Assembly (NCBI GenBank): GCA_963924555.1
Contig: OZ004591.1
Coordinates: 3,968,001-4,032,000, forward strand
Direction: 5' to 3'
DNA length: 64,000 nucleotides
From: Crambe crambe
Taxonomy: Eukaryota > Porifera > Demospongiae > Poecilosclerida > Crambeidae
Notes under the pieces: generated by a model
Told to the model about the DNA's origin: nothing
Databases searched by the model: none
What the model saw: the letters and a program-made list of their open reading frames with translations, nothing else
Translations under genes and position numbers: made by a program
Shown: positions 24,415 through 50,879 of the stretch, piece after piece
How positions within the stretch are numbered: the stretch's first letter is position 1
Layout of the letters: every line of letters starts with the position of its first letter

Positions 24415-27400
24415 ATGGAAGTTGAAGTAGTCTTTCCTCGAGTTTGCGGGGCCTTTTATCAGGTAAAAGTGAAGGTGTGGAGTACAATTTTGTCTCTATA
24501 ACTAGATAGAACTTACGTCTTACGTCAGCGTCGTTCATTTTCTTGTGGAGCCAGCTGTTTTAACTATCTAGTTGGTTGGCTGGAGTGTAGGCGTGGCTAT
24601 TAACTATGCCATATGCTACTTTTTTTCTTAGGCCTTTGTCCTAGATGTCAACCTCAATGATGGTACAGCTTACCTCACATTCCCATCAGAGTAAGTTCAC
24701 TCCATGGTGTGATTCTAAATAGAGCCCACCTTCTTCATGCAGCTGGAAGCCACCAGTGTGGGTGGAGCTTAGTCATATTAGATTCCCACCAAGTTCCTCT
24801 GCTGCAAGTTCCTCTGCTGTAGTACCACTTTCGTTTGATGCAGGAAATAAAGTGGAGGTAATCTCTCTCTCTCTCTCTCTCACTCACACACACGATTAGA
24901 TAGCAAATAGCAAGGCTACTGAGTTCACCTTCATAGTCTTACATTGTGGATAGAGCAGCCTAACTGCCTTGTGTGTATAATTATGCTGAAACTTAATTGT
25001 GCCCTTTACAAAGCTAGCAAGAGTACGGCCATGTTTTAGTATTTCTTACATCGGAGGGAAGTGAAATAATGTCTAAGCATTCAGTTTTCATTGGCTTAAA
25101 TCATGCCACACACCTCCACCAAAAGAAGTATGTGAGAGGGATTCACCCTTATGACCAATGGTAACAGGATTTAGTGATAAGATTTGTAGCTAGTTGCAAA
25201 AAATGGTATTTCTCTGAACTTAATATTCATAGATGGTTAGATGGTTTTTATTATTCATAACTTGTTCTAGTTTCCAAGTAGCCGTTTTATATAATTTATG
25301 CTCTTGTAAATACTCTTTTCAAGAAAGCCAAGTGGTACAAAGGTCATCCTCAGTTCCAAGTACCCTTGCATCAAAAATGAGGTCCATGGAGGTGTTAGTT
25401 ATGATGGTGGTTAACACAGTTTTCTAGCTACATGTGTTGGGGGGGGGGGGGGGGGGGGGGAGGATTCATGGGATGTTGCCCAGGAGGATTCATGGGATGT
25501 TGCCCAGACTAGAATGTGTCCTAATCTAATCAAGAGGTGGTGTAGGGGTACATCTGATTGTGTCCTGGTGGGATCAAGAAAACAAGAAATTCAAGTTATG
25601 TAAATTAAGGCATACACTTCACATAGAGCTCTAGAGGTGCCTTTATTTTTGGTATGCTTATAAGATTCCATCTACATGTGTCCTCATTTCCTTACAAGAT
25701 CTGCTACATGTGTGAAATTCAGGGCCGCCTCAATATGAGGGGTCGGCCGGCCCATCAGCTAAATCTGTGCATGTGTTAGAAGATCTAACCACAATGGTTG
25801 ACTGGTTGTCAATTCAGTTGGGTTGATTTGCTAACTATATTCTTATCTCATGGTAGGCATATCTACCCCATCATGATAACGAACCTCCAGGCTGGTGGAC
25901 TGGTACTCTTTTAAAATCAAAGGGAGAGGTAAAAGATATATCTTTACTTTACCTATGTAACTTTGAGCTGAGCAAACACTTGCTCTTTGCAGCTCCACGT
26001 GGTGGAGTTTCAGTCTGGTTCTGAGAAGTACCAGGACATAGTAGAACATGATAAGTTAAGAGCTCCAAATACCAAGTAAGTTTGAGGTCTAGACTAATTA
26101 CTACCAGAATTGCATTCATTCTTGAAAGCTTAAGATTCCATTTCATGTGAGGAAATTCATTCTTATCCTTCCTATCAGTTTGCCACTCTCAAAAGTCCAT
26201 ATGTTTAAGAAGGAGTTCCAAGTCTCAGAAGATCTTCATGATTAGTAAGCTTTAAAAAAAAAACAACATTTCTCCTATTTCATGACCTGAGTTTTGCTCA
26301 CTGCAGCTGTCAGAGACGTGGTGTTCACGACAACTTCTGCAGCAAAATTAAAGCTCTGTGTGTCTCCTATGATAAAAACCGCCAGGTTTTGGTCGTGCTG
26401 GTAAGTTAATCTGGAGTTTCAATACCATACCAAAGACTATGTTGTAACTCTTGTCTATAAAATGATCATCTGGATGGAGTGTTGGCTAGTAAACTCTCCA
26501 AATTTCAGGCTGCAATACAAAAACCTATTAGGGATATTTTCAAGGAAGAGCTGCTAATTAAACCTCTGAAGAGTGGAAACCTCTCTCAAGGACTAGAGGT
26601 TTTCCACTGACAGAAGTTCCCAGGGGAAAACAGAATTATTCATGCAGTCACTTCCTGGAAGAGAAGGGTTTATGTTGTTCTGCACGTTTAGTAGGGTGCC
26701 AAATGTCCTTGGGTGTACACCCGCTGTTTATCAATCGTAATTTGACCTTCTATGATAGTGCCATTAGATAAAAAATTTTTCCTGCTATTCTGTGCAGTGA
26801 AGTGTCAGGATACATACTTCATCTTATATGATTGCTCCTTGTTCCCTTCCCTCTCCTCCCCTCCCTTCCCCTCCCCTCCCCTCCCTTCCCTTCCCTTCCC
26901 CTCCCCTCCCCTCCCTTCCCTTCCCTTCCCCTCCCCTCCCTTCCCTTCCCCTCCCCTCCCCTCCTTCACATGTCCAGGGTACCAGCGAAGTTTGTTTGAA
27001 CAAGGCCAGTGTCCTCAGTGAAATGCACTTTAAGGACCTTAAGACGCAGAAATCCTTACTTAGACAGAGTGAATATGTGCAGAAGGTGAGCAGCAGGACT
27101 ATTGTTCATCTGTACTGTACTGTACTAACATTAGGCATGCCTTATTTGGGGAGGTGTGCTGTAGGAATGTGGTGGGGAAATACCCTGCAGGGTGACCTCT
27201 GTCTGCAGTCTTCATACCTTTATATTTAGTGTGACATAAGTATCCTGGGAGATTGCATGCATCATAAAAAAAAATGGGTAGTATGCAAATGAAGTTATAG
27301 CTGTCTATGAAGGCAGGGTAAAACTACACCTCATCTCACTTCAGGACGCCTCACTTATGCTAGGATCAAGCTATGAATACTATTATTGGCCACTAGCTAT

Positions 27401-30008
27401 TTCAATATTGCAGGGGACTACATAGAGATTATGTCATCATCATGCTTAAATAGAACAATTTCTTGTCATGCATGATGAATGGGAAAGAAAGGACATGAGT
27501 CTGGGGCATGAATATCATGCTGTGTAGGCCTTGCTTAAGAGGGGAAATCCTTTATTGACAATTTCCCTCCACCAGCAACATGTTAGTCACAGTGGAGGTG
27601 GAGAAGGAGGGGGAGGGGACAAAATGAAGGAGATTCGCTTCCACGTTCCAACAGATCTGGTTGGAATGGCAATAGGCAGAGAAGGAGCTAATGTGAATGA
27701 GGCCAGGAGGATAAAAGGAGTTAAGACAATAGAGTTTGATGACTACTCTTCAATGTTCAGTATCAAGGGAGAGGTGAGTGTCTCAATGTTCAGTGTGGAG
27801 GGAGAGGTGAGTGTCTCTATGTTCAGTGTGGGGGGAGAGGTGAGTCATTCTATGTTCAGTGTGGGGGGAGAGGTGAGTGTCTCAATGTTCAGTGTGGAGG
27901 GAGAGGTGAGTGTCTCTATATTCAGTGTGGGGGGAGAGGTGAGTGTCTCTATGTTCAGTGTGGGGGAGAGGTGAGTCATTCTATGTTCAGTGTGGAGGGA
28001 GAGGTGAGTATCTCAATGTTCAGTGTGGGGGGAGAGGTGAGTCACTCTATATTCAGTGTGGGGGAGAGGTGAGTCACTCTATGTGCAGTGTGGGGGGAGA
28101 GGTGAGTCAATCTATGTTCAGTGTGGGGGGAGAGGTGAGTCACTATGTTCAGTGTGGGGGGAGAGGTGAGTCATTCTATGTTCAGTGTGGAGGGAGAGGT
28201 GAGTATCTCAATGTTCAGTGTGGGGGGAGAGGTGAGTATCTCAATATTCAGTGGGGGGGGGGGGGGGTGTCTCCATATTCAGTGTGAGGGGTGCATGTTT
28301 TGGTATGCAAGTGTCCCCGTGAGGGGAAGTGATGCATGTTCATGATAGGTGAGGGAGAAGAGAGATAAGTTTTCCTGTGTTCAATGTGAGTGGGATTGTG
28401 ATCCCTGTGGTAGTTGCAACCATTACCAGATATCTTCATTTTTTGCTGTGTAGTCTGATGAAGCTCTGGAAAAGGCGAGAGAGAGACTTGAATTTGGTCG
28501 CGAAATGATGCTTATTCCCAGAAATCTTGCCGGTTAGATTACATGATATCACGTGACAGTCACATGTCATGTTATGTGGGTGCGTGTTGCAGGTAAAGTG
28601 ATAGGGAAGAATGGGAACATCATACAGGAGATCCTGGAGAAGTCCAAGGTCCACAACGTCAAGGTCTTGGGGGACGACGAAGCAAAGGACAGAAATGTAG
28701 ACATCAATACACAGGTAAATCCAAGCTTGTCATCTACTGTATGAATGAGGACCCACTTTCCTAATTAGTGCATTATAGCAATCTATACAAAGTGGAGCTC
28801 AGCATATGTCTTGTTTTGTAGGTACCATTTGATTTTATTGGGAGAAAATCTGAAATAGATATCGCTAAAATGATGATGGAGTATCATCTAGACCATCTAA
28901 AGGTATGATCATTCTATTTAATGCTCTCCCTTAATTTCTGATCATTCTATTTAATGCCCTCTATGACATTTAGAGTGTTGAAAAGATTTTGCAATCTCGT
29001 AAGGAGTTGGAGAGCTTACCGAACAATGTGGGCAACTACTTTCCGGCCCCCTCTACTCAGAGTCGAGGGGGAGGCAGACGGGGTAGAGGTAGTTTTCGTT
29101 CTTACAGCAACAGAGGTGGATCATCAAGGGAATTGTAAGTATGTGACAGTCCCAAGAGGATTAGTTATTTCTCAATGTTTCATCCTAAACTTTCACATTT
29201 TAATGACCAAATTTAGCCCTACAGATTCATATTCATACTCCATTGTTGACTCTTCACCTTTTGTTGTTGTGTTAGACGGAGGGAGGAGCCTCCAGAGGAT
29301 GAAGTCCCCCCTCCAGATGAGTCCAGTGGGACCAATGCCAACCCCTCCGAGGAAGTGTATGAATCTGATGATGACAGTGACTCTGAGAGCAATGAGGAGC
29401 AAGGGGCCAGTGAGGAAGAGGTGTGTGTGGTGGAGAGGGTTGTAAGGGTTGCATGTGGAGTCTAGTTCATGTACATTGACAATAGAACCTCCAAAGGATA
29501 CTTAGCTCCAGCTATACCCAATAGAGTGTGCATTAATTAGGTATAGGTGTGCACTATTAATAATATTTTTGTTCTATTGTAGAAAAGTGCTTCTGAAAAT
29601 GACGACCAGGGTCCTGATAGGCGGAGAGAGCAGAACCCACCACGAGACCAACGTGGTGGTAGGCGGGGAGGAGGAGGGGGAAGAGGGCGTGGTAGAGGTG
29701 GACGTGGCTATAGAAATCAGCGTCAAGGACAGCGGTATAGATACGGAGGTGGAGCAGCAAACCGAGGAGATAGTGGTGGTGATGCAAGCACCTTTTCATC
29801 ATCGGAGCAGTCGAGACGTGGTGGAGGAAGAGGAGGAGGAAGAAGTCAGGAGGGAGTGTCGCCCAAACCACAGCGCCAAGGAGGAAGACAGAGGGGAGGT
29901 GGTGTTCAGAAAAGTCCCATCAGTGAAAACAAGTCAGAGGAAACACTGCCTCAACCTGCAGCCTCAGCAGCTAATGGTGAACCCAAGACCACAGAAACCT
30001 CCCCCTGA
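24415..30008 (+). CDS. FMRP/FXR-family RNA-binding protein, complete, 618 aa, 15 exons
   Basis: Exons: 24415-24462, 24632-24690, 24743-24857, 25857-25928, 25993-26075, 26179-26244, 26307-26400, 26978-27085, 27576-27773, 28454-28532, 28593-28714, 28822-28902, 28974-29134, 29276-29420, 29583-30008; phases agree throughout (1857 nt). The order of domains is that of vertebrate FMR1/FXR1/FXR2: MEVEVVFPRVCGAFYQ starts the first Tudor domain (1-75), then a second Tudor (to about 125), a KH0-like region (130-215), KH1 (LVGMAIGREGANV, about 224-305), KH2 (LAGKVIGKNGNIIQEIL, about 305-375), an acidic Ser-rich linker and a C-terminal RGG box (478-618). Such proteins bind mRNA and ribosomes and repress or localise translation. 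FMR1 and its two paralogues come from one ancestral gene, so no paralogue name is given. Exon 9 is followed by an array of duplicated splice donors. Its 3' end faces an NLR gene. Confidence 0.95.
25439..25460. repeat. Poly-G run in FXR intron 3
   Basis: There are 22 consecutive G, followed by two copies of AGGATTCATGGGATGTTGCC. Its length may vary or be mis-assembled. Confidence 0.9.
26844..26970 (+). repeat. CCCTT/CCCCT pyrimidine microsatellite before FXR exon 8
   Basis: About 120 bp of pure pyrimidines (CCTCCCCTCCCTTCC words) end some 10 bp before the exon 8 acceptor at 26977. The array therefore forms the polypyrimidine tract of that splice site. Confidence 0.9.
27774..28290 (+). repeat. 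33-bp minisatellite made of exon 9 end plus splice donor
   Basis: About 15 tandem units begin directly at the exon 9 donor. Each 33-bp unit consists of a copy of the last ~24 nt of exon 9 (CAATGTTCAGT...GGGAGAG) plus the first ~9 nt of the intron (GTGAGTGTC). Each unit therefore recreates GAG/GTGAGT, a strong donor. Units of 33 bp keep the reading frame, and the first six or so are open (MFSVGGEVSVS per unit); a single-base loss near 27960 breaks it. The array ends in a G-rich tract at 28251-28267. Confidence 0.9.
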
Positions 30009-30591
30009 GCCTCCCTCCCTCCGTCTTCATAATAACAATGTATGTTAAAGTGCAACTTAAATGCTGTGATGACAACTTGTAGTTCTCTAGTTATTTATGT
30101 GGCACTATAAAGGCATGAGAATGCTTCATTGTAGGGTACATATGTAGTAGTTACTGTTGTCTGTGTCGTCTCTTCTTCCTCCCTCTCTCTCTTTTGTTGG
30201 TGTCCTGTGAGTAGGTACAAGCTTTAATGTATTGTACTGAGCTTTCCATGTCATCCTCCGTATTTGTTATTCTGGCTAAATTAGCTATGCATTTTAATCT
30301 TCCTTTATAGATTTGATCTATTTTATAACTTTTTGTTGCAGGATTTCCACTTATTGTACTCATTATCTGATAACTGCTGTCTGTTTATAACCACATTCTA
30401 TAGCTGTATGTACCTTTCCTCATGTGATCTTCACCTTTTCTGATTTTTTTTGTAATCTTTTACTGATAATTATTTACTCCAGTATATATGATTGGCTCTG
30501 TCCACGTTTACTGTATGGGTCCTACTCTGGGTCCAGCTGCTTCCACATATCATGGGTCCTACTCTGACCCCAGCTGCCAGTAGTTGAAATA
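30009..30591. other. Convergent 3' region between FXR and NLR1, with a small antisense ORF
   Basis: 583 bp separate the FXR stop from the NLR1 stop. It holds 3' untranslated sequence of both, one and a half units of the 37-bp repeat that is expanded at 42.1-44.0 kb, and a 70-codon minus-strand ORF at 30363-30151 (starting MSTISGNPATKSYKIDQIYK). The same ORF is present in the second copy (41989-41777) and frameshifted in the third. It has no recognisable domain; it may be only 3' untranslated sequence of the NLR transcript. Confidence 0.5.
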
Positions 30592-33458
30592 TCAAAGGAA
30601 AAAATTAAAAAAAACTTTTTTTAATAATTTACACCAAATAATACGAGAATCTAAATCATATTCAGAGAGGTTACTTACTACATCACTACTATGATAGACC
30701 TTTAATGTTTGCAAAATTGTGTTCTTTTTAAGTCCGTTCAACACGGGTCCAAAAAGGTCAACAATTTTCACTGAAGAAAGTACTGAGTACCTTAAAACAA
30801 GACATTGTAGGGTAGTGTTCTTTTCTAATACACGTCCTACGTACTTGGCATGCTTTTCTGACCATTCAAAGATATGAAATGTTAGGTGAGTGAGACAAGT
30901 GTTGGTCTGCAGTGGAGCAAGTGAACCAAGGTCACATAGATCAATACGCAATTCTTGCAGTGAGGAAGAACCAAAGACTACATCAGATAATTCTTTACTG
31001 TAATGATTAATATTGTTAATACTTAAAGTCCTAAGATTCCCAGTGACTGGAGAGATCAGCTTAGCCAATGCATTGAGAGTGTCAGCATTCAGTAATTCAT
31101 AATCTCTGGAGTCCACATTTCCAATGGTCAAGGAGGTTAACTTAATGTTGGAAAGCTGATTGAATACCTTAGCGGCTACAGATGGACCAATTTCAAGTGT
31201 ATTCAAGTTGTTAAATAAAGAAATCACTTCAGTTGAATGGTTGTCTAGTGGCCCATACAAGGTAAGATCAGTAATACTGTGCAAGATGCTTGTTGGACAC
31301 TCCTTAAAAGCCGTAAGAGAGCAGTCTGATGCAGTAATTTTAGTTACAGTACCTTTACATTGTTTTCTCGACTTGAGGCCCCAAATGAAACTATCTGATG
31401 GTCCCTCAGCTAACATCACCTCCCAGGATGCTGTAGGGGCACTGATGGCAATGCAATAGCCTAATGCATACTTCTCTAGTGGACCAAATGCCCAACTTGC
31501 TGATACTTCATTTGTTCCAAAAGTAGCTGCGAAATCAAAGTCAGAAATTTGAACTTCATACAAGCATTGGAGAAACTTCCTGGATAACATGCACTTATTT
31601 TCCCGTATGGTCACAAAGGCTTTATTAATGGCCTCATGCCAGAAAGATTCCAAACAAGTTAAACCAGCTACAAATCTCCACACCACATTCCAACGGTAAT
31701 GATTACAATACTGTTTGAATACCTCTTGCCTATCATGATGGGGAAGCTGGGAAATATGGTAAGCAGTTAAGAATTCTTGGAAGGTGAGATGGAGGAAGTT
31801 GTGGGAGGCTCCACCTTCAATGTAAAAGGAAAGTACAGTGTCAAGGAAACCAAAATGGACCAAGTCTCCAGGCAAAGCATCACTGTAAAAAATGACTTCA
31901 TTCTCTTTAAATCCCTCAAAAGCTAATTCAGATAACTTCAGAAAGTGACGAAGATATTCTTCAGGGAGATCAGTAAACTTATTTAAAGGAATATGGTCTG
32001 ACCGATCCTTGAGGTACCTTTGCAGTATTATAAGGCACAATCTTGTGTATAATTGTGTTAATGTTTTGGGTATAGGACAACCAGTTCTCCTGCTATTTCT
32101 GTATATGTTAACAACTATAGCTGCATTAAGAGGAATGTACATCAAGCTGTTGATTGCAGGACTGCTGGAGGCTGATATATAAGTTAAGAAGTCACTCAGC
32201 ATTTCAGGCTCAGATGAAAAGACACTGGAGGCATATTTTTCGACACATTCTTGAGTGAAACCCAAGATTTCTACATGCTTTTGTACCTGGAGATCACTGC
32301 TGCTAAGAAAGTCAGCAGTTGCTGATGGTCTGCTGGTCACTATCACTGTGGACTTTGGTAGATCGTGTCCTGTGATAATATTGATCAAGAGTCCATCACA
32401 CCGCAAGCTACTAGGAAGCTCATCAAAGCCATCAAGAATGAACAAAACTCCCTTACCATGAGAGTTGATTACTTCCTTAGATACAGCTTTCTTCAAATCA
32501 CCATTCTGGTGATAAAATAGATCATCAATTTCTCTCATCTGTTGCACATACTTGTCCCTTAATCTGAGAAGCACCACCAAATTGTAGTGCCTCATGGATG
32601 GAATCTCGTCCCACTTCCTACACAGTTCCCAAGCAAAAGTACTTTTACCCACTCCAGGAGGACCCTCTACCAAAACTAATGCCAAATGACTATGGTGTTC
32701 AAAGATATCGTCAATGTTGATCTCCTCCTTGTTTTTTAGAATCTCTGCAACATTACCATGTAAAGTGTGCTTCATAACCTCATCAAGATCACGTGGCTTA
32801 TGGTGCACCAGTGCAAGGTTGATGTACTTTTTACTAGGAGTGGGAGGGAACTTGCCGTCATTAGAAACTGAACATCTTTCATACCTTCCCTTGAGGAAGT
32901 CGGCATAGTGAGAAATGGCTGATGAAGCAGCTGGACAGGAGACAGGTGTAGCACCTATAAACACACATCATATTTGATTTGTGTTAGTTTTATCATTCAT
33001 CACTTACGATAGGTCTCCATCAATGAATCAGCTAATGATTGGAAGTAAGGTTCAGACTCCAAGATACTTATGAACTTGGTGAAGACTGATGGCTCTACTC
33101 TGAAGCTTGACTCGACAGCATTCAACAATGCAACAGTCCTGTTAGCTGGAGTATGCATTTCATACAAGGCCTTTTTATAAACCCCTTGAGGTATAATACC
33201 TTCTTCACGTAACTTGTTGGCCACATTGACTAGATCATTGCTAATCATGTCAGTCATAGCTCCACGCTGACTTATGAAGGAACTCACTGCCCTATCTGGA
33301 TCAGAGAAGTCTCTTGACTGAGACTTTTCCATGATTCCATCAGAATTTTTGCTCTCCAGGTCATGATAGTCATCAGAAGTGTTACTAGGAGATTCGTATT
33401 CAAGTTTCTTTTTCTTTTTAGATGGCAATTGAGGGGAGGACAATTCAGACTCACTCAT
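30592..33458 (-). CDS. NLR-type immune receptor: death-fold (CARD-like) + NACHT + LRR, intact, about 937 aa
   Basis: There are two exons: 33458-33008 (start MSESELSSPQLP; an upstream in-frame ATG at 33512 would add 18 residues) and 32954-30592, phases agree. Exon 1 has a Lys/Ser-rich start and a helical segment of about 100 residues (DPDRAVSSFISQRGAMTDMI onwards) typical of a CARD/death fold. Exon 2 is one uninterrupted 2.36-kb exon with a NACHT ATPase: P-loop GPPGVGKST (about 248-256) and Walker B LFILDGFDELP (about 321-331). Several leucine-rich repeats follow (TCLTHLTF, NTTLQCLVL). Sponges are known to carry many such NLRs, thought to sense microbes in the cytosol. It is tail-to-tail with the FXR gene and has two damaged paralogues downstream in this window. 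The death-fold subtype is inferred from helical pattern only. Confidence 0.9.
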
Positions 33459-33938
33459 AGTGGGCTTGCGACTTAGATTTAGGAAAAGGGTCGGCAGTTG
33501 GACCACCACCAACCGAATAACTCATGACATGATGTAGTTTACATAGCAACTTCCCTAGTAACCTGACTATAGTGTCAAAAATGCGCTAATCAGTTGCTAT
33601 GTGACCAAAGAAGCCATGCGCAGACAGTCTAACCAGACAGACCACGAGTGAAAGGTCAAATTACCAAAAAGAAGCGAGAAGATTGCTAGAGCAGAAGCCA
33701 CGCTAAGCGCTTGAAGTTATTGGCATTAAAGCGTTTTAAACAAGAGTTTATGAAGAGACAAAAGCGCTTTCAGGTACCTTTCTAAGACTGCCACCTAGAA
33801 GAAAGACTCAGGAGTCTTGTTCCTATTCTCTATAGCTTGTGCCAATTTTCCTGTGGACGCTACACCAGAAATAAAGGACCATACATCAATAATGTAAGTT
33901 TATATTTATTATTGGTAGACTATGATAGTGGTATATTT

Positions 33939-36900
33939 TTAGTTGCTTGTTTTCTTCCTTTTCTTCCTTCTTTGTAACTCTGGCTTTAGATCTAGTAGTT
34001 GGGGGCTGGTCTCTACATTATACATATTAAATATATATTTCAGTCGATCGACTGGATTTGTGATGCTTGCAAAATTCCTTTCCAGGGTGTGCAGGTGTGC
34101 ATGGAGAGATTCTGCACCTTGTTCTCCCATCAGGCCAGCCCCTACATGCCACTTTCTCAACCAAGGGATGACATGATCCTCAAGGATATGCATCTTTGGG
34201 AGGACAGTGGCATGTGGGAAGCTGGATCGATAGTGAGCCATGAATTCTGTGATATCATTCTCTATACAAAAAAGATACTTCATTTGAAAAGAACTGACAC
34301 ATCTCTGAAGATTACCAAGCTTATCCACTTCTGCATCATCCATGGCACTCCCACTGTATCCTTGATGACACTTGCCAAACTTATTTAAAATTTCTTTAAA
34401 TTTTTTGCAGACACCATTTGCCTTGGTTGTTATACCTTTCTTTTCTGCTTCTGACTTGATTGTATCAATCAGCGTTTCAATACTAGGAGCCTACAGTACA
34501 TAATTATTGTTACCATAGTTCAGATAATTTTGAGGGTCACCTTCACAACTTGTTGACATGGTTTCCGATGAAAGTTCCCCCATGATATGCCTGTTTTTCT
34601 ATATTTAATTCTTTCAATGCTGTTGAAAGGCACTGATAGAAAGGTCCGTCTTTGGGGTTGAATTTCTTTTTCACAATATCTTCTGTTGCACTAATTTCCG
34701 ATTCCTACATGGTGAATTTTAATGCATGGATAGATAATAGTGAGTAATAATAATTGTACCATTTTCTTGACTTCTTGCCATAAATTAGAAGCTTCGCTTT
34801 GAATTGATAGGAAGGAGGTACTGGTAGGAGCATTGGGCAAAGTCAGTGAAAAGTAAGTCACCAATTGGTCCAGTAGTATTGCCTTTTGCTGTAGAGTATT
34901 AAGGTTAGACTTTAATTCTGAAAGATGCCGAAGGGCCGAGGAGTATTTATCAAATGTGTTTCCAACTCCACCATCACTACTTCTTTCAGCTAAATGCAAG
35001 TCTAACTCAGTGCACGCTTCTTCCAACAGCTCCCATATTCGGTTAAAAATCCCCAAAGATAGGTGTAGACCAGGAAAGCAAACCTACATATTTAATTTTG
35101 ATGTAAATGCAATTATGGACTGTGGTTATCACCTTGTCCAGTGGAATATTAACTATGGCTGGCTCTATGACATTATTGTAAAATTTGGCCTTCTTGATGT
35201 TTCCCCCATTATCAAAGAACCGTTTGTGATCTTCCCTCAGGGTTTGCAGTGACCTCTCTTTGACTCGGCCTCTGACAGAAAGGGGTTTTTTCAACTCGGC
35301 ATTTGTAATATGGCACCAAAGGCAGCAGTGTCTCCCTATGAGTAAGTTAATTTATTCAAAAAGTTAGTAGTTCATGAGTTAGTATTGTATACCACTGGCT
35401 CCAGATAGGCCGTACATACGGCAGAGAAACTCATAATCACCAGAGAGAAATACACTGATTTTATAACCACTGTGTGTATAAAGGAATAGATAACTTTAGA
35501 AGTGGGATGGCTATATATTACCTCATTTCCATTCCCTCAATTTCCTCAATTTGTTCTCTGTACATTTCTAAGCATGTGTGCAGATTTGTGGTTGAATCTC
35601 CTGCCATGAACATGGACAGTAGATTAGTACATTTCTGTGAATTTGGGTGGAGTATGTTGCATAGCTGCAGATTCAGCTTAAAACTCCCACGGCCTTTATC
35701 CCCCCCTAGCTTCACCCAGAGTTTGTCCTTGGGCATTACTCCATGCCATGTGAGACCAGCTTTTGTCCTATATTAAGTTAAACTGATTGATCACTGTTCA
35801 ATTTTTATAACTAATTTAACCTTTCATAAGATGCTATCATGTCGGCCACTTTCGCTATCAAATTTGGCACATACACAAATGGTGCTTCACGGATCACTTC
35901 ACCACCACCGTCACCACTGAAAGAAAATGCTCCCAATTCAGCCTTCAAATTCGTTCCAGCAATGGTTTTTGCCAGAGCCCGTTGTTTGCTTTCACTGGCT
36001 AGAGTGATGTTGAGAGTCTTCAGCCAACTAAATGTAAGTGTAGTAACTGAAGGATTTATCATGAATATCACTTTACCTTCTAATAATTCTTAATTTAGCC
36101 CATGGCAAAGAAAGATCTGCCTTTAGAGCCAAAGCATGGTTGGTTGGTATTACCACAGGAAGACCTGCTCCACGCAGAAGCTGCTCTCTCTCATCCTTTG
36201 GCAGGCACCCAAGCTCACTCTGCAGTTGTGAAATAGCTTCTCCTCCACTAACAGCACTCCTGATGTTCGAAAGGCAGTGTGACCGCCGTTGAATAGTTTT
36301 TGGGCATGCTTCACTGGTCTTTACTCGACATTGAGGTACAGGCATCAAAGTTAAGGGCTATAAACCATATTGGAGAGACTAATGAGTTTTAATATTAGGT
36401 GCTGTATTATACTAACTTGTCCTTGTGTGGGGATTTTGATTACACTGTTGTCAGGATTTTCAGACATGATCCGTCTGATAACAGTAGCTGCTACCCTTTT
36501 TTCCACAGGTGTGATTGGAGTTTCTGTAGTCTTCGACAGAATTTCCCCTATGGTAACTCGTGATGGAGAAACGGTAGATTGGACAAAGTATTGTTTACAC
36601 TGCGCTTCCAAATGCTGCCGATAGTCACTCGCTCTCACACTCCTGTTGCATCCTTTGTTGCAGTCCACTACCAAACTACCTAAAACACTCATGGTCACTT
36701 CACTCGGCCTCTGGAGATGTTTGTCAACTGGCATGGATGTATGGCAGCAAGGGCAAGTAAGGTCACAACTAATTTGTACCCACTTACAACAACATGCAGC
36801 ACATACAATACTTCCACACGCTAGTTCTAGTGGTCTTTCAGGGACTTGTGTACAAATAGCACATTCAATGTTCAGAGTGTGTAAAATTGAGTGATTATAT

Positions 36901-37407
36901 GAAGGGATTGAACTCTGAGGGAAGAAAGAAGCTGGGGCAATATCTTGCATATGTGCAATTGCTTGTGAAGGCGTTATGCCTTTGGGTCTACCAGAAGTTT
37001 TCTCTCGTTTCCGGTTTTGTCCACCGCCTACTATTACAGTGGTGAAGTGCTGACAAATCTATGTCATCAATTTTATATGAGTAGATTAAATAAGTTTTAT
37101 GGCATCTTACATTGCAATTTCCTTCTTTGTGCTCATGCCATGAATATTGGTTTTTTATAGCTGGTGTGATGTATGGCAGTCCCTTGTTATCAGCTGCTGC
37201 TTTTCGGCGAATTACGCCATAGCAAGAGAAACAGAACTGAGGGGGGTGTATGTCGCTATTATCATTTGTGATGTCCACTGAAAAGGTTTTCAAGAGCTCT
37301 TGGTGATACTTGCTACATTCAAAGGCCCTCCCATTGCCCTTAGATGATCTCAACCTCCTACCACAAACCCTGCAGCTTTTCATCAGTTCCTCCTTGTGAA
37401 AATCCAT
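33939..37407 (-). CDS. RAG1-like transposase gene, 9 exons, open for about 965 aa
   Basis: Exons 5' to 3': 37407-37111, 37058-36417, 36357-36077, 36027-35821, 35767-35522, 35331-35133, 35083-34760, 34704-34547, 34482-33939. Phases match and total 2898 nt with no internal stop; the exon 8/9 junction is the least certain. N-terminus: CRVCG (12-16), IHPPQFCFSCYGVI and NCNICQ, following the RAG1 N-terminal zinc-binding pattern. Then comes a RING (CAIC at 165-168, CPCCHTSMPVDKHL) and a second zinc motif (CNKGCNRSV), as in RAG1. The C-terminal half resembles an RNase H-type transposase core: KLGGDKGRG (D499), CLWC (561-564) like RAG1 CTLC, LHLSLG (631-635) at the RAG1 LHCDIG position but with Ser for the Asp, paired His (883, 888) and GLMGEQGAES (E905/E909) at the last acidic position. 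N-RAG-TP-type elements with RAG1-like N-termini are known from molluscs and other invertebrates. Activity is unproven. Confidence 0.85.
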
Positions 37408-37589
37408 AATGATCTGTGTATTTTTGTTGTAATTTATGGTGTATTTTAAAATATGATTATTCCCTATCACAAAATTGGCACAAGGAATTGTTGTTTATAT
37501 ACAATTCAGGGTTCTCCCCAGGATTCATCAAAAGCATAGGGGCAAGACTGGCAAGACCATCATGAAGAGTGTTCTGAGATGGCTCCTGG

Positions 37590-37790
37590 TGTAAAAGCCT
37601 GCCACCAGTAAGGCACAGTGGCAAGATATAAGGGGGAAGAACTGAAGGCATAGTGGCAAGATATAAGGCATAGCTGAAGGCATAGTGGCAAGACATAAGG
37701 CATAGGGGAAAGAACTGAAGGCATAGTGGCAAGATATAAGGCATAGGGGAAGAACTGAAGGCATAGGGGCCCACTATGCCTTAAGATACC
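37590..37790. repeat. Tandem array inside the RAG1-like element
   Basis: Four to five imperfect units share AACTGAAGGCATAGTGGCAA and GATATAAGGCATA. Minus-strand ORFs across it (LPLCLQFFPLCLMSCHYAF type) are repeat by-products. Confidence 0.85.
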
Positions 37791-38274
37791 TGGGGAGAAC
37801 CCTGCAATTAGACTGACCTTTGGTTGATCTGATAAAAATGACCACTATGTTCTACGCGCTTCCTTGCGGTCACAATAGACAAGAATGTTGATTGAGTCTG
37901 GAATGGCTGTTGTAGTATCCGCCGGAAAAATGTCTGCTCAGTTTGAAATTATTCCAGCTGCTGGTGCGCAGTTGATTCCAAGGCAACCAAAGGGTCCTGT
38001 GTTATTATGTAAACTTGTTTTTATTGTGTGAATGTGCATATTGTTTGTATTTAAACGGTGTTGGAAAGTTGTGAGAACTACAAAGGTTCATGAATATATT
38101 AATGAGGATACCGGAAGTATATTATTATTGATCTAATTACGCGTTAATTTCCGGATTAAACAGCCGGCCGTGCAATATACTGATCGTAGTCTGGCGTAGC
38201 GGTGACCCTTACCAACGTGACAGAATGTACATGCATGCCAATGGTGTCTATTTCTCCACAATCGTGTACCAATG

Positions 38275-38540
38275 CATTCAAATAGAAAAGTGTCGGGATT
38301 GGATAAAGATTTGTTGATTATTGAGAGAAAATGGACATGTTCCTTGATCTGACAATATGCAGAGATGTGAACGAGGCCAGGAGGATAAGAGGAGTTAAGA
38401 CAATGACTACTCTATATTCAGTGTGGAGGGAGAGGTGAGTGTCTCTATATTCAGTGTGGGGGGAGAGGTGAGTGTCTCTGTGTATGGTGTTAGGAGAGAG
38501 GCAAGTGTCCTTATTCAGTGTGAGGGGAGGGGTGCATGTT
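38275..38540 (+). pseudogene. Relic of FXR exon 9 plus its donor repeat
   Basis: At about 38361-38412 a fragment of FXR exon 9 (GAGGCCAGGAGGATAAG and AGGAGTTAAGACAATG) is followed by three to four units of the donor minisatellite (GAGAGGTGAGTGTCTCTATA). The preceding 60 bp (GCATTCAAATAGAAAAGTGT onward) match 54530-54590 on the far side of the duplicated block. Confidence 0.75.
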
Positions 38541-38889
38541 GGTGTATCCAAAATTCACATGGTTGGTTTCTTTTTAGAGCTACAGAGGGGAATCAAGTTA
38601 TCAATAACTTGGACAACTGTGAAATCAAGCAATCCCGTCAATGGCCTAAATGGAAGTCATATCACCAAAGTATCAGAATCATCTACATTCACAGCAACGA
38701 AGATTCATCTCCAACCGCCACAACTCTGAGTGAAACTTCCTTTCATACAAAACCTTCAATGCATCATTGTAAATGTGATATTCAATAACAGTTAGTGGAA
38801 AGATTAACGATTGCTGACCATGGCCACTGCACAAGTAACTGGTGGTTGACTGGTTTGTCAATTTAAACTATATTCTTATCTCATGGCAG

Positions 38890-41640
38890 GCATATCTTCC
38901 CCATCAAAATCCAAGGGAGAGGTAAAGATATATCTTTACTGTACCTATATAACTTGAAAACACTTGCTCTTTGCAGCTCCATGTGGTGGAGTTTCAGTCT
39001 GGTTCTGAGAAGTACCAGGACATAGTAGAACATGATAAGTTAAGAGCTCCAAATACCAAGTAAGTTTGAGGTCTAGACTTAAGATTCCATTTCATGTGAG
39101 GAAATCCTTTCTACAAGTAAAATCATAAAAAAATTTTTCTGTATGCAAAGTGACACACACTTATAGCTGTCTATGAAGGCAGGGTAAGCCACACCTTGTC
39201 TCACCCACTCCCGCTAGGATCAAGCTATGATTACTATTCTTTGCCAGGAGCTAGTTATTTCAATATTGCAGGGGACTGCATAGAGATTACATCATCATGA
39301 TGCTTAAATAGAACAATTTCTTTCTGAAAATCAATGCATGATGAATGGGAAAGAATATTTAAGGGGAGAAATCCTTTCATTCAATTTCTCTTCCATCAGC
39401 AACATGTTAGTCACAGTGGAGAAGGAGGGGGAGGGGACAAAATGAAGGAAATTTGCTTCCACGTTCCAACAGATCTGGTTGGAATGGCAATAGGCAGAGA
39501 AGGAGCTAATGTGAATGAGGCCAGGAGGATAAGAGGAGTTAAGACAATAGAGTTTGATGACTACTCTTCTATGTTCAGTATCAAGGGAGAGGTGAGTGTC
39601 TCAATGTTCAGTGTGGAGGGAGAGGTGAGTCACTCTATGTTCAGTGTGGAGGGAGAGGTGAGTCACTCTATGTTCAGTGTGGGGGGAGTGTGGGGGGAGA
39701 GGTGAGTGTCTCAATGTTCAGTGTGGGGGGAGAGGTGAGTGTCTCAATGTTCAGTGTGGAGGGAGAGGTGAGTCACTCTATGTTCAGTGTGGAGGGAGAG
39801 GTGAGTCACTCTATGTTCAGTGTGGGGGGAGTGTGGGGGGAGAGGTGAGTGTCTCAATGTTCAGTGTGGGGGGAGAGGTGAGTGTCTCAATGTTCAGTGT
39901 GGGGGGAGAGGTGAGTGTCTCAATATTCAGTGTGGGGGGGGGGAAGGTGAGTGTCTCCATATTCATAGTGAGGGTGTTTTGGTGTGCAAGTGTCCCCGTG
40001 AGGGGAAGTGTGCATATTCGTGTGAGGTGAGGGAGGAGAGAGATGAGTTTTCCTGTGTTCAATGTGAGTGGGGTTGTGATCCCTGTGGTAGTTTCAACCA
40101 TTACCAGATATCTTTATTCTTTGCTGTGTAGTCTGATGAAGCTCTGGAAAAGGTGGGAGAGAGACTTGAATTTGGTCGCGAAATGATGCTTATTCCCAGA
40201 AATCTTGCCGATTAGGTTACATGATGATATCACGTGACTGTCACATGTCATGTAATGTGGGTGTGTGTTGCAGGTAAAGTGATAGGGAAGAATGGGAACA
40301 TCATACAGGAGATCCTGGAGAAGTCCAAGGTCCACAACGTCAAGGTCTTGGGGGACGACGAAGCAAAGGACAGAAATGTAGACATCAATACACAGGTAAA
40401 TCCAAGCTTGTCATCTACTGTATGAATGAGGACCACTTTCCTAATTAAAACCCCCTTAGTGCATTATAGCAATTTAACTATACAAAGTGGACCTCAGCAT
40501 ATGTCTTGTCTTGTAGGTACCATTTGATTTTATTGGGAGAAAATCTGAAATAGATATCGCTAAAATGATGATGGAGTATCATCTAGACCATCTAAAGGTA
40601 TGATCATTCTATTTAATGCTCTCCCTTAAATTCTGATCATTCTATTTAATGCCCTCTATGACATTTAGAGTGTTGAAAAGATTTTGCACTCTCGTAAGGA
40701 GTTGGAGAGCTCACCGAACAATGTGGGCAACTACTTTCCAGCCCCAGAGTCAAGGGGGAGGCAGAAGGGGTAGAGGTAGTTATCGTTCTTTCAACAACAG
40801 AGGTGGACCATCAAGGGAATTGTAAGTATGTGACAGTCCCAAGAGGATTAGTTGTTTCTCAATGTTTCATCCTAAACTTTCACATTTTAATGACCAAATT
40901 TAGTCATATTCGTCTTCACCTTTTGTTGTTGTGTTAGACGGAGGGAGGAGCCTCCAGAGGATGAAGTCCCCCCTCCAAATGAGTCCAGTGGGACCAATGC
41001 CAACCCCTCCGAGGAAGTGTATGAATCTGACGATGATAGTGACTCTGAGAGCAATGAGGAGCAAGGGGCCAGTGAGGAAGAGGTGTGTGAGGTGGAGAGG
41101 GTTATAAGGGTAGCATGTGGAGTCTAGTTATAGTCCAGCTATACCCAATATAATAGGGTGTGCATTAATTAGGTATAGGTGTGCACTATTAATAATATTT
41201 TTGTTCTATTGTAGAAAAGTGCTTCTGAAAATGACGACCAGGGTCCTGATAGGCGGAGAGAGCAGAACCCACCACAAGACCAATGTGGTGGTAGGCAGGG
41301 AGGAGGAGGGGAAAGAGGGCATGGTAGAGGTGGACGTGGCTATAGAAATCAGCGTCAAGGACAGCGGTATAGATACGGAGGTGGAGCAGCAAACCGAGGA
41401 GATAGTGGTGGTGACGTAAACACTTTGTCATCATTGGAGCAGTCGAGACGTGGTGGAGGAAGAGGAGGAGGAAGAAGTCAGGAGGGAGTGTCGCCCAAAC
41501 CACAGCGCCAAGGAGGAAGACAGAGGGGAGGTGGTGTTCAGAAAAGTCCCATCAGTGAAAACAAGTCAGAGGAAACACTGCCTCAACCTGCAGCCTCAGC
41601 AGCTAATGGTGAACCCAAGACCACAGAAACCTCCCCCTGA
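38890..41640 (+). pseudogene. Second FXR copy, 5'-truncated and damaged
   Basis: Segments match FXR exon 4 (38890-38921, 40 bp deleted), exon 5 (38977-39059), exon 9 (39400-39591), exon 10 (40132-40210), exon 11 (40274-40395), exon 12 (40517-40597), exon 13 (40669-40821, 8 bp shorter so frameshifted), exon 14 (40938-41082) and exon 15 (41215-41640). Exons 1-3 and 6-8 are absent. The exon 10 donor is lost: the G of GT at 40211 has become A, so reading on meets a TAG at once. High identity in the kept exons and introns shows the duplication is recent. An intact KH1-coding exon and RGG exon remain but no complete message can be formed by the original splicing. Confidence 0.9.
39592..39965 (+). 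repeat. Donor minisatellite of the second FXR copy
   Basis: About 11 units of the same 33-bp type as at 27774-28290, but in a different order and number. Two GTGTGGGGGGA insertions disturb the period. The arrays have thus diverged in length since duplication. Confidence 0.9.
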
Positions 41641-42149
41641 GCCTCTCCGTCTTCATAATAACAATGTATGTTAAAGTGCAACTTAAATGCTGTGATGACA
41701 ACTTGTAGTTCTCTAGTTATTTATGTGGCACTATAAAGGCATGAGAATGCTTCATTGTAGGGTACATATGTAGTAGTTACTGTTGTCTGTTTCGTCTCTT
41801 CTTCCTCCCTCTCTCTGTTTTGTTGGTGTCCTGTGAGTAGGTACAAGCTTTAATGTATTGTACTGAGCTTTCCATGTCATCCTCCATATTTGTTATTCTG
41901 GCTAAATTAGCTATGCATTTTAATCTTCCTTTATAGATTTGATCTATTTTATAACTTTTTGTTGCAGGATTTCCACTTATTGTACTCATTATCTGATAAC
42001 TGCTGTCTGTTTATAACCACATTCTATAGCTGTATGTACCTTTCCTCATGTGATCTTCACCTTTTCTGATTTTTTTTTGTAATCTTTTACTGATAACTAT
42101 TTACTCCACCATGTACCAGTATATATGATTGGCTATGTCCACGTTTACT
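41641..42149. other. Convergent 3' region of the second FXR/NLR copy
   Basis: This is nearly identical to 30009-30520, including the 70-codon minus-strand ORF (41989-41777). No other gene is seen. Confidence 0.7.
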
Positions 42150-43992
42150 GTATGGGTCCTACTCTGGGTCCAGCTGCTTCCACATATCATGGGTCCTACT
42201 CTGACCCCAGCTGCTTCCACATATCATGGGTCCTACTCTGGGTCCAGCTGCTTCCACATATCATGGGTCCTACTCTGATCCCAGCTGCTTCCACATATCA
42301 TGGGTCCTACTCTGGGTCCAGCTGCTTCCACATATCATGGGTCCTACTCTGACCCCAGCTGCTTCCACATATCATGGGTCCTACTCTGATCCCAGCTGCT
42401 TCCACATATCATGGGTCCTACTCTGGGTCCAGCTGCTTCCACATATCATGGGTCCTACTCTGGGTCCAGCTGCTTCCACATATCATGGGTCCTACTCTGA
42501 CCCCAGCTGCTTCCACATATCATGGGTCCTACTCTGACCCCAGCTGCTTCCACATATCATGGGTCCTACTCTGACCCCAGCTGCTTCCACATATCATGGG
42601 TCCTACTCTGGGTCCAGCTGCTTCCACATATCATGGGTCCTACTCTGACCCCAGCTGCTTCCACATATCATGGGTCCTACTCTGACCCCAGCTGCTTCCA
42701 CATATCATGGGTCCTACTCTGGGTCCAGCTGCTTCCACATATCATGGGTCCTACTCTGACCCCAGCTGCTTCCACATATCATGGGTCCTACTCTGACCCC
42801 AGCTGCTTCCACATATCATGGGTCCTACTCTGACCCCAGCTGCTTCCACATATCATGGGTCCTACTCTGGGTCCAGCTGCTTCCACATATCATGGGTCCT
42901 ACTCTGACCCCAGCTGCTTCCACATATCATGGGTCCTACTCTGACCCCAGCTGCTTCCACATATCATGGGTCCTACTCTGACCCCAGCTGCTTCCACATA
43001 TCATGGGTCCTACTCTGACCCCAGCTGCTTCCACATATCATGGGTCCTACTCTGGGTCCAGCTGCTTCCACATATCATGGGTCCTACTCTGACCCCAGCT
43101 GCTTCCACATATCATGGGTCCTACTCTGACCCCAGCTGCTTCCACATATCATGGGTCCTACTCTGGGTCCAACTGCTTCCACATATCATGGGTCCTACTC
43201 TGGGTCCAGCTGCTTCCACATATCATGGGTCCTACTCTGACCCCAGCTGCTTCCACATATCATGGGTCCTACTCTGACCCCAGCTGCTTCCACATATCAT
43301 GGGTCCTACTCTGGGTCCAGCTGCTTCCACATATCATGGGTCCTACTCTGACCCCAGCTGCTTCCACATATCATGGGTCCTACTCTGACCCCAGCTGCTT
43401 CCACATATCATGGGTCCTACTCTGACCCCAGCTGCTTCCACATATCATGGGTCCTACTCTGGGTCCAGCTGCTTCCACATATCATGGGTCCTACTCTGAC
43501 CCCAGCTGCTTCCACATATCATGGGTCCTACTCTGACCCCAGCTGCTTCCACATATCATGGGTCCTACTCTGGGTCCAGCTGCTTCCACATATCATGGGT
43601 CCTACTCTGACCCCAGCTGCTTCCACATATCATGGGTCCTACTCTGACCCCAGCTGCTTCCACATATCATGGGTCCTACTCTGACCCCAGCTGCTTCCAC
43701 ATATCATGGGTCCTACTCTGACCCCAGCTGCTTCCACATATCATGGGTCCTACTCTGGGTCCAGCTGCTTCCACATATCATGGGTCCTACTCTGACCCCA
43801 GCTGCTTCCACATATCATGGGTCCTACTCTGACCCCAGCTGCTTCCACATATCATGGGTCCTACTCTGGGTCCAGCTGCTTCCACATATCATGGGTCCTA
43901 CTCTGACCCCAGCTGCTTCCACATATCATGGGTCCTACTCTGACCCCAGCTGCTTCCACATATCATGGGTCCTACTCTGACCCCAGCTGCTA
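42150..43992. repeat. 37-bp minisatellite, about 50 units, specific to the second copy
   Basis: Units of 37 bp (TTCCACATATCATGGGTCCT, ACTCTG, then ACCCC or GGGTC, then AGCTGC) are almost identical and fall into two main types that differ at four bases. The types alternate mostly as one GGGTC unit followed by two or three ACCC units, a higher-order pattern. The corresponding places in the first (30510-30580) and third copies (50775-50835) have only about one and a half units. The 103-residue plus-strand ORFs are repeat by-products. Confidence 0.95.
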
Positions 43993-44033
43993 TATACTAG
44001 CTAGTCCAATGCAAGAAAAAAATTAACTTTTTT

Positions 44034-46756
44034 TTATAGTTTACACCAAATAATACGAGAATCATATTGAGAGAGGTTACTTACTACACCACTACTATGA
44101 TAAAGCTTTAATGTTTGCAAAACTGTGTTCTTTTTAAGTCCATTCAACACAGCTTCAAAAGGGTCGAAGATTCTCTTTGAAAAAGATAAGTACTTTAAAA
44201 CAAGACATCGTAGGGTAGTGTTCTTTTCTAATACACATCCTATGTACTCGGCATGCTTTTCTGACCATTCATAGATATGAAATGTTAGGTGAGTGAGACA
44301 AGTGTTGGTCTGCAGTGGAGCAAGTGAACCAAGGTCACATAGATCAATACGCAATTCTTGCAGTGAGGAAGAACCAAAGACTACATCAGATAATTCTTTA
44401 CTGTAATGATCAATAAATTCAATACTTAAACTCCTAAGATTCCCAGTGACTGGAGAGATCAGCTTAGCCAATGCATTGAGGGTGTCAGCATTCAGTAATT
44501 CATAATCTCTGGAGTCCACACTTCCAATGGTCAAGGAGGTTAACTTATTGTTGGAAAGCTGATTTAATACCTTAGCGGCTACAGATGGATCAATTTCAAG
44601 TGTATTCAAGTTGTTAAATAAAGAAATCACTTCAGTTGAATGGTTGTCTAGTAGCCCGTACATGATAAGATCAGTAATACTGTGCAAGATGCTTGTTGGA
44701 CACTCTTTAAAAGCCGTAAGAGAGCAGTCTACTCCAGTAATTTTAGTTACAGTACCTTTACATTGTTTTCTTGACTTGAGGCCCCAAATGAAACTATCTG
44801 ATCTCCCAGATAACATCACCTCCCAGGATGCTGTAGGGGCACTGATGGCAATGCAATAGCCTAATGCATACTTCTCTAGTGGACCAAATACCCAACTTGC
44901 TGATACTTCATTTGTTCCAAAAGTAGCTGCGAAATCAAAGTCAGAAATTTGAGCTTCATACAAGCATTGGAGAAACTTGATGGATAACTTGCACTTATTT
45001 CCCTGTATGGTCACAAAGACTTTATTAATGGCCCCGTGCCAGAAAGATTCCAAACCAGTCAAACCGGCTACAAATCTCCACACCACCTTCCAACGTTTAT
45101 CACTACAATACTGTTTGAACACCTCTTGCCCATCATGACGGGGAAGCTGGGAAATATAGTAAGCGGTTAAGAATTCTTGGAAGGTGAGATGGAGGAAGTT
45201 GTGGGAGGCTCCACCTTCAATGTAAAAGGAAAGTGCAGTGTCAAGGAAACCAAAATGGACCAAGTCTCCAGGCAAAGCATCACTGTAAAAAATGACTTCA
45301 TTCTCTTTAAATCCCTCAAAAGCTACTTCAGATAACTTCAGGAAGTGACGAAGATATTCTTCAGGGAGATTAGTAAACTTATTTAAAGAAACATGGTCTG
45401 ACCGATCCTTGAGGTACCTTTGCAGTATTATAAGGCACAATCTTGTGTATAATTGTGTCAATGTCTTGGGTATAGGATAACCAGTTCTCCTGCTATTTCT
45501 GTATATGTCAACAACTATAGCTGCATTAAGAGGAATGTACATCAAGCTGTTGATTGCAGGACTGCTGGAGGCTGATATATAAGTTAAGAAGTCACTCAGC
45601 ATTTCAGGCTCAGATGAAAAGACACTGGAGGCATATTTTTCGACACATTCTTGAGTGAAACCCAAGATTTCTACATGCTTTTATACCTGAAGATCACTGC
45701 TGCTAAGAAAGTCAGCAGTTGCTGATGGTCTGCTGGTCACTATCACTGTGGACTTTGGTAGATTGCGTCCTGTGATAATATTGATCAAGAGTCCATCACA
45801 CCGCAAGCTACTAGGAAGCTCATCAAAGCCATCAAGAATAAACAAAACTCCCTTACCGTCAGAGTCAATCACTTCCTTAGATACAGCTTTCTTCAAATTA
45901 CCATTCTTGTGATAAAATAGATCATCAATTTCTCTCATCTGTTGGACATACTTGTCCCTTAATCTGAGAAGCACCACCAAATTGTACTGCCTCATGGATG
46001 GAATCTCATCCCACTTCCTACACAGTTCCCAAGCAAAAGTACTTTTACCCACTCCAGGAGGACCCTCTACCAAAACTAATGCCAAATGACTATGGTGTCT
46101 AACTGGCTCAAAGATATCGTCAATGTTGATCTCCTCCTTGTTTTTTAGAATCTCTGCAACATTACCATGTAAAGTGTGCTTCATAACCTCATCAAGATCA
46201 CGTGGCTTATGGTGCACCAGTGCAAGGTTGATGTATTCTTTACTAGGAGTGGGAGGGAACTTGCCGTCATTAGAAACTGAACATCTTTCATACCTTCCCT
46301 TGAGGAAGTCGGCATAGTGAGAAATGGCTGATGAAGCAGCTGGACAGGAGACAGGTGTAGCACCTATAAACACACATCATATTTGATTTGTGTTAGTTTT
46401 ACCATTCATCACTTACGATAGCTCTCCATCAATGAATCAGCTAATGATTGGAAATAAGGTTCAGACTTCAAGATACTTATGAACTTGGTGAAGACTGATG
46501 GATCTACTCTGATGTTTGACTCGACAGCATCCAATAATGCAACAGTCCTGTTAGCTGGAGTATGCATTTCATACAAGGCCTTTTTATAAACCCCTTGAGG
46601 TATAATACCTTCTTCACATAACTTGTTGGCCACATTGACTAGATCATTGCTAATCATGTCAGTCATAGCTCTACGCTGACTTATGAAGGAACTCACTGCC
46701 CTGTCTGGATCAGAGAAGTCTCTCAACTGAGGCTTTTCCATGAATACGTCCGACAA
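44034..46756 (-). pseudogene. Second NLR copy, interrupted by one nonsense codon
   Basis: This follows NLR1 collinearly: exon 1 from about 46740 to 46417 (CARD-like segment; the Lys-rich start of NLR1 is missing upstream of MEKPQLRDFSDPDRA) and exon 2 from 46363 to 44034. The P-loop GPPGVGKST and Walker B LFILDGFDELP are intact. Between the NACHT Walker B and the downstream part, CAA (Gln in NLR1 and in the third copy) has become TAA at 45683-45681. Apart from this stop the frame is open to the end, so a single C-to-T change accounts for the loss. A truncated CARD-NACHT product is possible. Reading error at this base cannot be excluded. Confidence 0.85.
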
Positions 46757-49005: not shown

Positions 49006-50256
49006 ATACACAATACACAGGTAAATCCAAGCTTGTCATCTACTGTATGAATGAGGACCCACTTTCCTAATTAAAAGTCAATTTAACTATACAAAGTGGA
49101 CCTCAGCATGTCTTTTGTTTTGTAGGTACCATTTGACTTTATTGGGAGAAAATCTGAAATAGATATTGCTAATGGAGTATCATCTAGACCATCTAAAGGT
49201 ATGATCATTCTATTTAATGCTCTCCCTTAATTTCTGGTCATTCTATTTAATGCCCTCCATGACATTTAGAGTGTTGAAAAGATTTTGCAATCTCGTAAGG
49301 AGTTGGAGAGCTTACTGAACAATGTGGGCAACTACTTTCCGGCCCCCTCTACTCAGAGTCGAGGGGGAGGCAGAAGGGGTAGAGGTAGTTATCGTTCTTT
49401 CAACAACAGAGGTGGACCATCAAGGGAATTGTAAGTATGTGACAGTCCCAAGAGGATTAGTTGTTTCTCAATGTTTCATCCTAAACTTTCACATTTTAAT
49501 GACCAAATTTAGTCATATTCATCTTCACCTTTTGTTGTGTTAGACGGAGGGAGGAGCCTCCAGAGGATGAAGTCCCCCCTCCAGTGGGACCAATGCCAAC
49601 CCCTCCGAGGAAGTGTATGAATCTGACGATGACAGTGACTCTGGGAGCAATGAGGAGCAAGGAGCCAGTGAGGAAAGAGGTGTGTTCGGTGGAGAGGGTT
49701 GTAAGGGTAGCATGTGGAGAATGGAGTATCTAGTTCATGTACATTGACAATAGAACTATTTAGCTCCAGCTATACCCAATATAATAGAGTGTGCATTAAT
49801 TAGGTATAGGTGTGCACTATTAATAATATTTTTATTCCATTATAGAAAAGTGCTTCTGAAATGATGACCAGGGTCCTGATAGGTGGAGAGAGCAGAACCC
49901 ACCACGAGACCAATGTGGTGGTAGGCGGGGAGGGGAGGAGGAAGAGGGCATGGTAGAGGTGGACGTGGCTATAGAAATCAGCGTCAAGGACAGCAATATA
50001 GATACGGAAGTGGAGCAGTAAACTGAGGAGATAGTGGTGGTGATGCAAGCACTTTGTCATCATTGGAGCAGTCGAGACGTGGTGGAGGAAGAGGAGGAGG
50101 AAGAAGTCAGGAGGGAGTGTCTCCCAAACCACAGCGCCAAGGAGGAAGACAGAGGGGGGTGGTGTTCAGAAAAGTGAAAACAAGTCAGAGGAAACACTGC
50201 CTCAACCTGCACAGCAGCTAATGGTGAACCCAAGACTACAGAAACCTCCCCCTGAG
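49006..50256 (+). pseudogene. Third FXR copy, part b (exons 11 end to 15)
   Basis: This starts abruptly with the last bases of exon 11 and its donor (ACACAGGTAAATCCAAGC), then exon 12 (49127-49198, internal deletion), exon 13 (49270-49430), exon 14 (49543-49680) and exon 15 (49846-50256). A one-base deletion near 49860 (GAAAATGAC to GAAATGAT) and further deletions shift the RGG-box frame. Its introns match the first copy closely, so it is younger than part a. Confidence 0.85.
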
Positions 50257-50879
50257 CCTCCCTCCCTCCGTCTTCATAATAACAATGTATGTTAAAAGTG
50301 CAACTTAAATGCTGTGATGACAACTTGTAGTTCTCTAGTTATTTATGTGGCACTATAAAGGCATGAGAATGCTTCATTGTAGGGTACATATGTAGTAGTT
50401 ACTGTTGTCTGTTTCGTCTCTTCTTCCTCCCTCTCTCTGTTTTGTTGGTGTCCTGTGAGTAGGTACAAAGCTTTAATGTATTGTACTGAGCTTTCCATGT
50501 CATCCTCCATATTTGTTATTCTGGCTAAATTAGCTATGCATTTTAATCTTCCTTTATAGATTTGATCTATTTTATAACTTTTTGTTGCAGGATTTCCACT
50601 TATTGTACTCATTATCTGATAACTGCTGTCTGTTTATAACCACATTCTATAGCTGTATGTACCTTTCCTCATGTGATCTTCACCTTTTCTGATTTTTTTT
50701 GTAATCTTTTACTGATAACTATTTACTCCACCATGTACCAGTATATATGATTGGCTATGTCCACGTTTACTGTATGGGTCCTACTCTGGGTCCAGCTGCT
50801 TCCACATATCATGGGTCCTACTCTGAGCCCAGCCTACTCCAATCAGTTTTAAGTTGAAATATCAAAGGGAAATTGTTTA
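50257..50879. other. Convergent 3' region of the third FXR/NLR copy
   Basis: This matches 30009-30591. The 70-codon antisense ORF seen in copies one and two is frameshifted here by one added A near 50468. Only about one and a half 37-bp units are present. Confidence 0.7.

Follow-up and report, generated by a model that had tools for sequence, protein, structure and literature searches.

Introduction

Kapitonov and Koonin (2015, PMC4411706) described Chapaev elements in which a transposase core is combined with a RAG1-like Chapa domain and a RING, and the available text of that paper places the RING in two Chapaev subgroups that carry the Chapa domain. As characterized in the accessible part of PMC4079192, Chapaev transposases show C(2)C, LH and H(4)H motifs (the first also defined in PMC12730594), and the elements are marked by CAC..GTG termini and 3- to 4-bp target duplications, whereas Chapaev3 makes TWA duplications. 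According to PMC3985635 (in the section available), the DUF1280 family corresponds to the putative transposases of Chapaev elements. Transibs typically make 5-bp duplications according to the same portion of PMC4411706. N-RAG-TP of the sea slug Aplysia, another system that comes close, is a transposon whose sequence is, in the accessible text of PMC8355894, entirely RAG1 N-terminal-like.

Here, we analyzed a 64-kb window, meaning the whole stretch of DNA under study (C14:3968001-4032000), in a 143-Mb assembly of 119 contigs (G000). With a probability of roughly 0.93, we identify the locus as a cut-and-paste DNA transposon of the Chapaev kind (CMC group), low in copy number and decayed in this copy, whose transposase combines Chapa, RING, C2H2-like and DDE parts. 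The assignment is based on the DUF1280 match, the C(2)C/LH/H(4)H motifs, the CAC-type termini and the exact 4-bp duplications. The element shares with the 2015 Chapaevs a Chapa zinc module, a RING and a DUF1280-family DDE core, but in the window copy the left end is missing and the frame broken. Its relatives share the CAC..GTG termini and 4-bp duplications given for Chapaev in PMC4079192. Like N-RAG-TP it carries RAG1 N-terminal-like sequence on a transposon; in contrast to N-RAG-TP, a full DDE core follows.

An earlier note, made from the letters of the window, had presented the locus as an apparently intact transposon that would inform how the RAG1 N-terminus joined a transposase. What stands of this is a transposon protein in which a DDE-type transposase is joined to the zinc/RING module of the RAG1 N-terminus; intactness and the novelty of the link do not, the latter because Chapaevs with Chapa, RING and core are already described in the accessible part of PMC4411706.

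Results

A minus-strand gene of 11 exons

The window contains a multi-exon gene on the minus strand (37407-33939) with 11 exons and about 977 codons, replacing an earlier count of nine exons and 965 residues. Its introns were placed by hand and are GT..AG introns of 49-59 bp; the tenth (54 bp) lies hidden inside the last open frame and was exposed by alignment with relatives, which have the exon layout in common with the window gene. The exons are as follows.

37111..37407, minus strand: exon 1, carrying the start codon and the larger part of the Chapa / RAG1_imp_bd zinc module
36417..37058, minus strand: exon 2, final part of the Chapa module, then the RING and the C2H2-like CNKGC motif
36077..36357, minus strand: exon 3, beginning of the transposase part
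35821..36027, minus strand: exon 4, transposase part, GGEVIR..YVPNL region
35522..35767, minus strand: exon 5, KLGGDKG with the putative first catalytic D; DUF1280 match
35393..35469, minus strand: exon 6, SGDYEF with the putative second catalytic D
35133..35335, minus strand: exon 7, CLWC, the C(2)C motif
34760..35083, minus strand: exon 8, PGLH, the LH motif
34541..34704, minus strand: exon 9, ending FIGNHV, with an in-frame stop just before the splice donor
34316..34490, minus strand: exon 10, placed by comparison with relatives
33939..34261, minus strand: exon 11, KMHILEDH, the H(4)H motif; GEQGAE with the putative catalytic E; stop codon

The motif order read earlier from the letters was recovered on the minus strand, both in the N-terminal third (CRVCG, IHPPQFCFSCYGVI, NCN|ICQ across a splice, RING, CNKGC) and in the transposase part (GGD, GDYEF, CLWC, H..H, GEQGAE).

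Exon 9 departs from its relatives: the frame hits a stop just before the donor, and is open in four located relatives (L029, L034, L040, L041; a fifth, L030, was excluded because the wrong stretch had been extracted). Inspection of the sequence revealed a GT 17 nt upstream of the placed donor that would restore phase 0, so that a functional gene using this weaker in-frame donor would still encode an intact transposase in an immobile copy. The same four relatives splice at the downstream donor and retain the residues lost with the upstream one, and we consider such a gene unlikely.

The N-terminal module resembles RAG1

The Pfam model RAG1_imp_bd (PF12560) matched residues 2-120 of the spliced window protein (E=5.8e-11), which identifies the Chapa domain seen in Chapaev elements. 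A phmmer search against solved structures matched full-length RAG1 (E=4e-8) over window-protein residues 37-252, a range that includes the zinc, RING and C2H2 parts. It also matched 1rmd, the RING/zinc domain of RAG1 taken alone (E=6.6e-6), over residues 161-251, which supports the RING/zinc assignment; many other RING ligases followed 1rmd with weaker E-values. A composite of a second family in the same genome also matched RAG1, at 9.1e-10, through its own N-terminus. Given these matches, the likeness to the RAG1 N-terminus is real and not due to chance, as proposed earlier from the motifs, the PF12560 and full-length RAG1 matches lying far beyond chance. The zinc module and RING/C2H2 parts, which align significantly with RAG1, form a feature in common with vertebrate RAG1 and ProtoRAG/TransibSU. 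The element confirms that transposons carry the N-terminal module of RAG1 along with a DDE core. Pfam RING models gave no match on the spliced window protein, and two RING models on a further composite (L012) were below cut-off and not used. A single-sequence structure model of exon 2 reached a pLDDT of 37 and was not used further.

The core shows Chapaev-type features

The DUF1280 model (PF06918) matched residues 488-553 of the spliced window protein (E=1.7e-10; 41.3 bits against a cut-off of 25), and a composite of a relative from the second family in G000 matched it over positions 6-219 of 220 (E=7.3e-16). Alignment with relatives placed the core motifs in the order KLGGDKG, SGDYEF, CLWC, PGLH, HILEDH, GEQGAE. 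The Chapaev signature lies between the putative catalytic D and E, as CLWC, PGLH and HILEDH followed by GEQGAE. Three acidic residues (D, D, E) within this order we take to be the catalytic ones, presuming their positions from the motif order and the RAG1 sequence.

A core-only profile (alignment A1) had no match at E<=10 among solved structures, and the part of the phmmer alignment that covers the core (residues 510-602 against RAG1 639-741) lacked significance when taken alone; the distant kinship of the core with the RAG1 core therefore rests on DUF1280, the motif order and the literature. Two further Pfam matches, Rh5 on the last exon and DUF4674 on the L035 composite, were below cut-off and not used.

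Termini and 4-bp target duplications

The sister copy on contig C3 carries CACGGCTGTTTAAT inverted repeats at both ends and a TGCT 4-bp duplication on both flanks. Its termini are of the CAC..GTG type; in the window copy, all that is left of them is a disrupted right repeat. All six elements for which matching termini could be resolved (L009, L029, L031, L034, L038, L040; L009 is the C3 sister copy itself) carry an exact 4-bp duplication. None of the six has a 5-bp duplication, and none has a TWA duplication as in Chapaev3 (PMC4079192, accessible part). The ends of L009 and the right end of L034 were located by a scan for CAC-type motifs; the other four pairs come from homology edges. Left out of the count were L030, whose right repeat was not found; L035, with one end only; L039, for which the scan gave a single end; L036 and L037, where the scan gave no motif; L032 and L033, which lay outside the scan; and L041, which is probably two elements, its two opposed CAC-type motifs differing in sequence and lacking matching flanks. 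The duplication evidence thus comes from relatives of the window copy, itself without a left end.

The transposase has the domain order Chapa zinc module, RING, C2H2-like zinc motif, then a RAG1/Transib-like DDE core. In the mechanism we propose, the protein would have bound the terminal repeats beginning CAC, excised the element and reinserted it with a 4-bp target duplication, and its RING may have served as a ubiquitin ligase, by analogy with RAG1.

These data also bear on whether the locus could instead be a RAG-like transposon (RAGL/ProtoRAG or Transib) and direct kin of vertebrate RAG1, a reading that would draw on the significant N-terminal match and on the apparently collinear order of core motifs shared with vertebrate RAG1 and ProtoRAG/TransibSU. 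The RAG1 core model PF12940 was absent among the spliced-protein matches at E<=10, a list from which filters drop most matches above 0.1, and had no match in the genome, a weak result since the 14 control genomes were silent too. RAG2 (PF03089) had no match in the genome either, and carries equally little weight with the 14 controls silent. The core matches the Chapaev family DUF1280, and the duplications are 4 bp, extending to 5 bp in none of the six elements, against the 5 bp typical of Transibs (PMC4411706, as far as its accessible text goes). The 4-bp duplications and DUF1280 largely refute a RAG-like transposon, which we regard as very improbable.

Decay of the window copy

DNA searches located the window family, which we assign to Chapaev, in three places. 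Besides the window copy there is one at C3:1083108-1085374, and fragments lie around C3:1987000. The C3 copy is more decayed than the window copy, with numerous internal deletions, but keeps both ends. Comparison with it delimits what is left in the window:

33528..38172, minus strand: probable Chapaev DNA transposon remains, left terminus and its inverted repeat missing
38157..38172, minus strand: remnant of the right terminal repeat, beginning CAC on the minus strand, with four extra bases relative to the C3 copy
37507..37804, no strand assigned: unrelated high-copy repeat of 298 bp, inserted upstream of the gene, present on many contigs, absent from the C3 copy

From 33528 to 38166 the two copies align in six pieces of 88.2-100% identity. 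In the C3 copy, the left terminal repeat begins 60 bp further out than the window homology, and about 60 bp including this repeat have been lost from the window copy. The ends once placed at 33536 and 38015 rested on one of 28 inverted-repeat pairs in 5 kb, a 15-bp pair of 87% complementarity, and were rejected, homology to the C3 copy continuing 151 bp further right and starting 8 bp further left.

With its left end gone, its right repeat disrupted, the 298-bp repeat inserted and the exon 9 frame broken, the copy is not the apparently intact element first described, and it is best read as dead. Since one end is missing and the reading frame is broken, it should not move by itself. Domestication as a host gene with a cellular role near the NLR cluster, for which one could cite that every exon except the ninth is open and that mobility would not be what keeps a copy with one end lost, is likewise very improbable in view of the broken exon 9 frame, the repeat inserted upstream and the more decayed copy on C3.

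Relatives in the genome and significance

The genome holds at least 18 Chapa-domain matches and at least 23 DUF1280 matches, all above the Pfam cut-off, with the two lists overlapping in elements; none of 14 control genomes has a match to either domain. In one family, three copies are 98.6-99.3% identical over about 4.2 kb, and on this identity some families appear to have moved recently. Near-identical copies in several families suggest recent activity in this host.

The matches are unevenly placed, 12 of 23 for DUF1280 and 8 of 18 for Chapa lying on contig C3, mostly at 0.45-3.75 Mb, a contig that makes up 6.8% of the assembly; for contrast, 5 of 150 scored reverse-transcriptase matches (801 candidates) are on C3. 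Such clustering could reflect local hopping or a low-recombination region.

The host lineage may be new for a Chapaev with Chapa and RING. Sponges are not mentioned in the accessible text of PMC4411706, no sponge Chapaev with a RING is described in the part of PMC4298943 available, and no such description was found in the open-licence literature, judged mostly by titles and the starts of abstracts. If the host is a sponge, we would tentatively suggest, at somewhat less than even odds, that the fusion of Chapa, RING and DDE core predates the split between sponges and other animals or has moved between them. Were this true, sponge Chapaevs would be the deepest animal branch in which to study how the RAG1 N-terminus came with its transposase.

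The window element by itself leaves the accepted picture of RAG1 origin unchanged. The analysis adds a genome with many Chapa/DDE elements and clean termini, whose longer relatives are better material on RAG1 origin than the decayed window copy.

Neighborhood and NLR duplications

The gene next to the element (30592-32967) encodes a NACHT domain (E=1.2e-22), in agreement with the immune NLR neighbor proposed earlier. This NLR region has matching blocks at 43928-46743 and at 49760-53276, the latter split into two pieces. No second copy of the transposon was found within the 64-kb window, NLR duplicates included, nor an empty site in those duplicates; since on the left the match of the paralogous block ends at 33334, no pre-insertion allele is demonstrable. 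With neither a copy nor an empty site in the NLR duplicates, nothing supports the suggestion that the element helped create the duplicated region.

The duplicated NLR-bearing blocks (27261-33334, 39122-46743 and 49011-53276) are 81-98% identical in pieces. An open frame reading VPTDLVGMAIGREGANVNEARR, which may resemble an FMR1/FXR KH domain, lies in each of the first two. Degenerate 33-bp repeats occur in or near these KH-like frames (27696-28357 and 38357-40036), with long open frames of the VSVSMFSVGGE type. A 37-bp tandem repeat runs from 42004 to about 44116 beside the second NLR unit, with 50 overlapping register copies reported.
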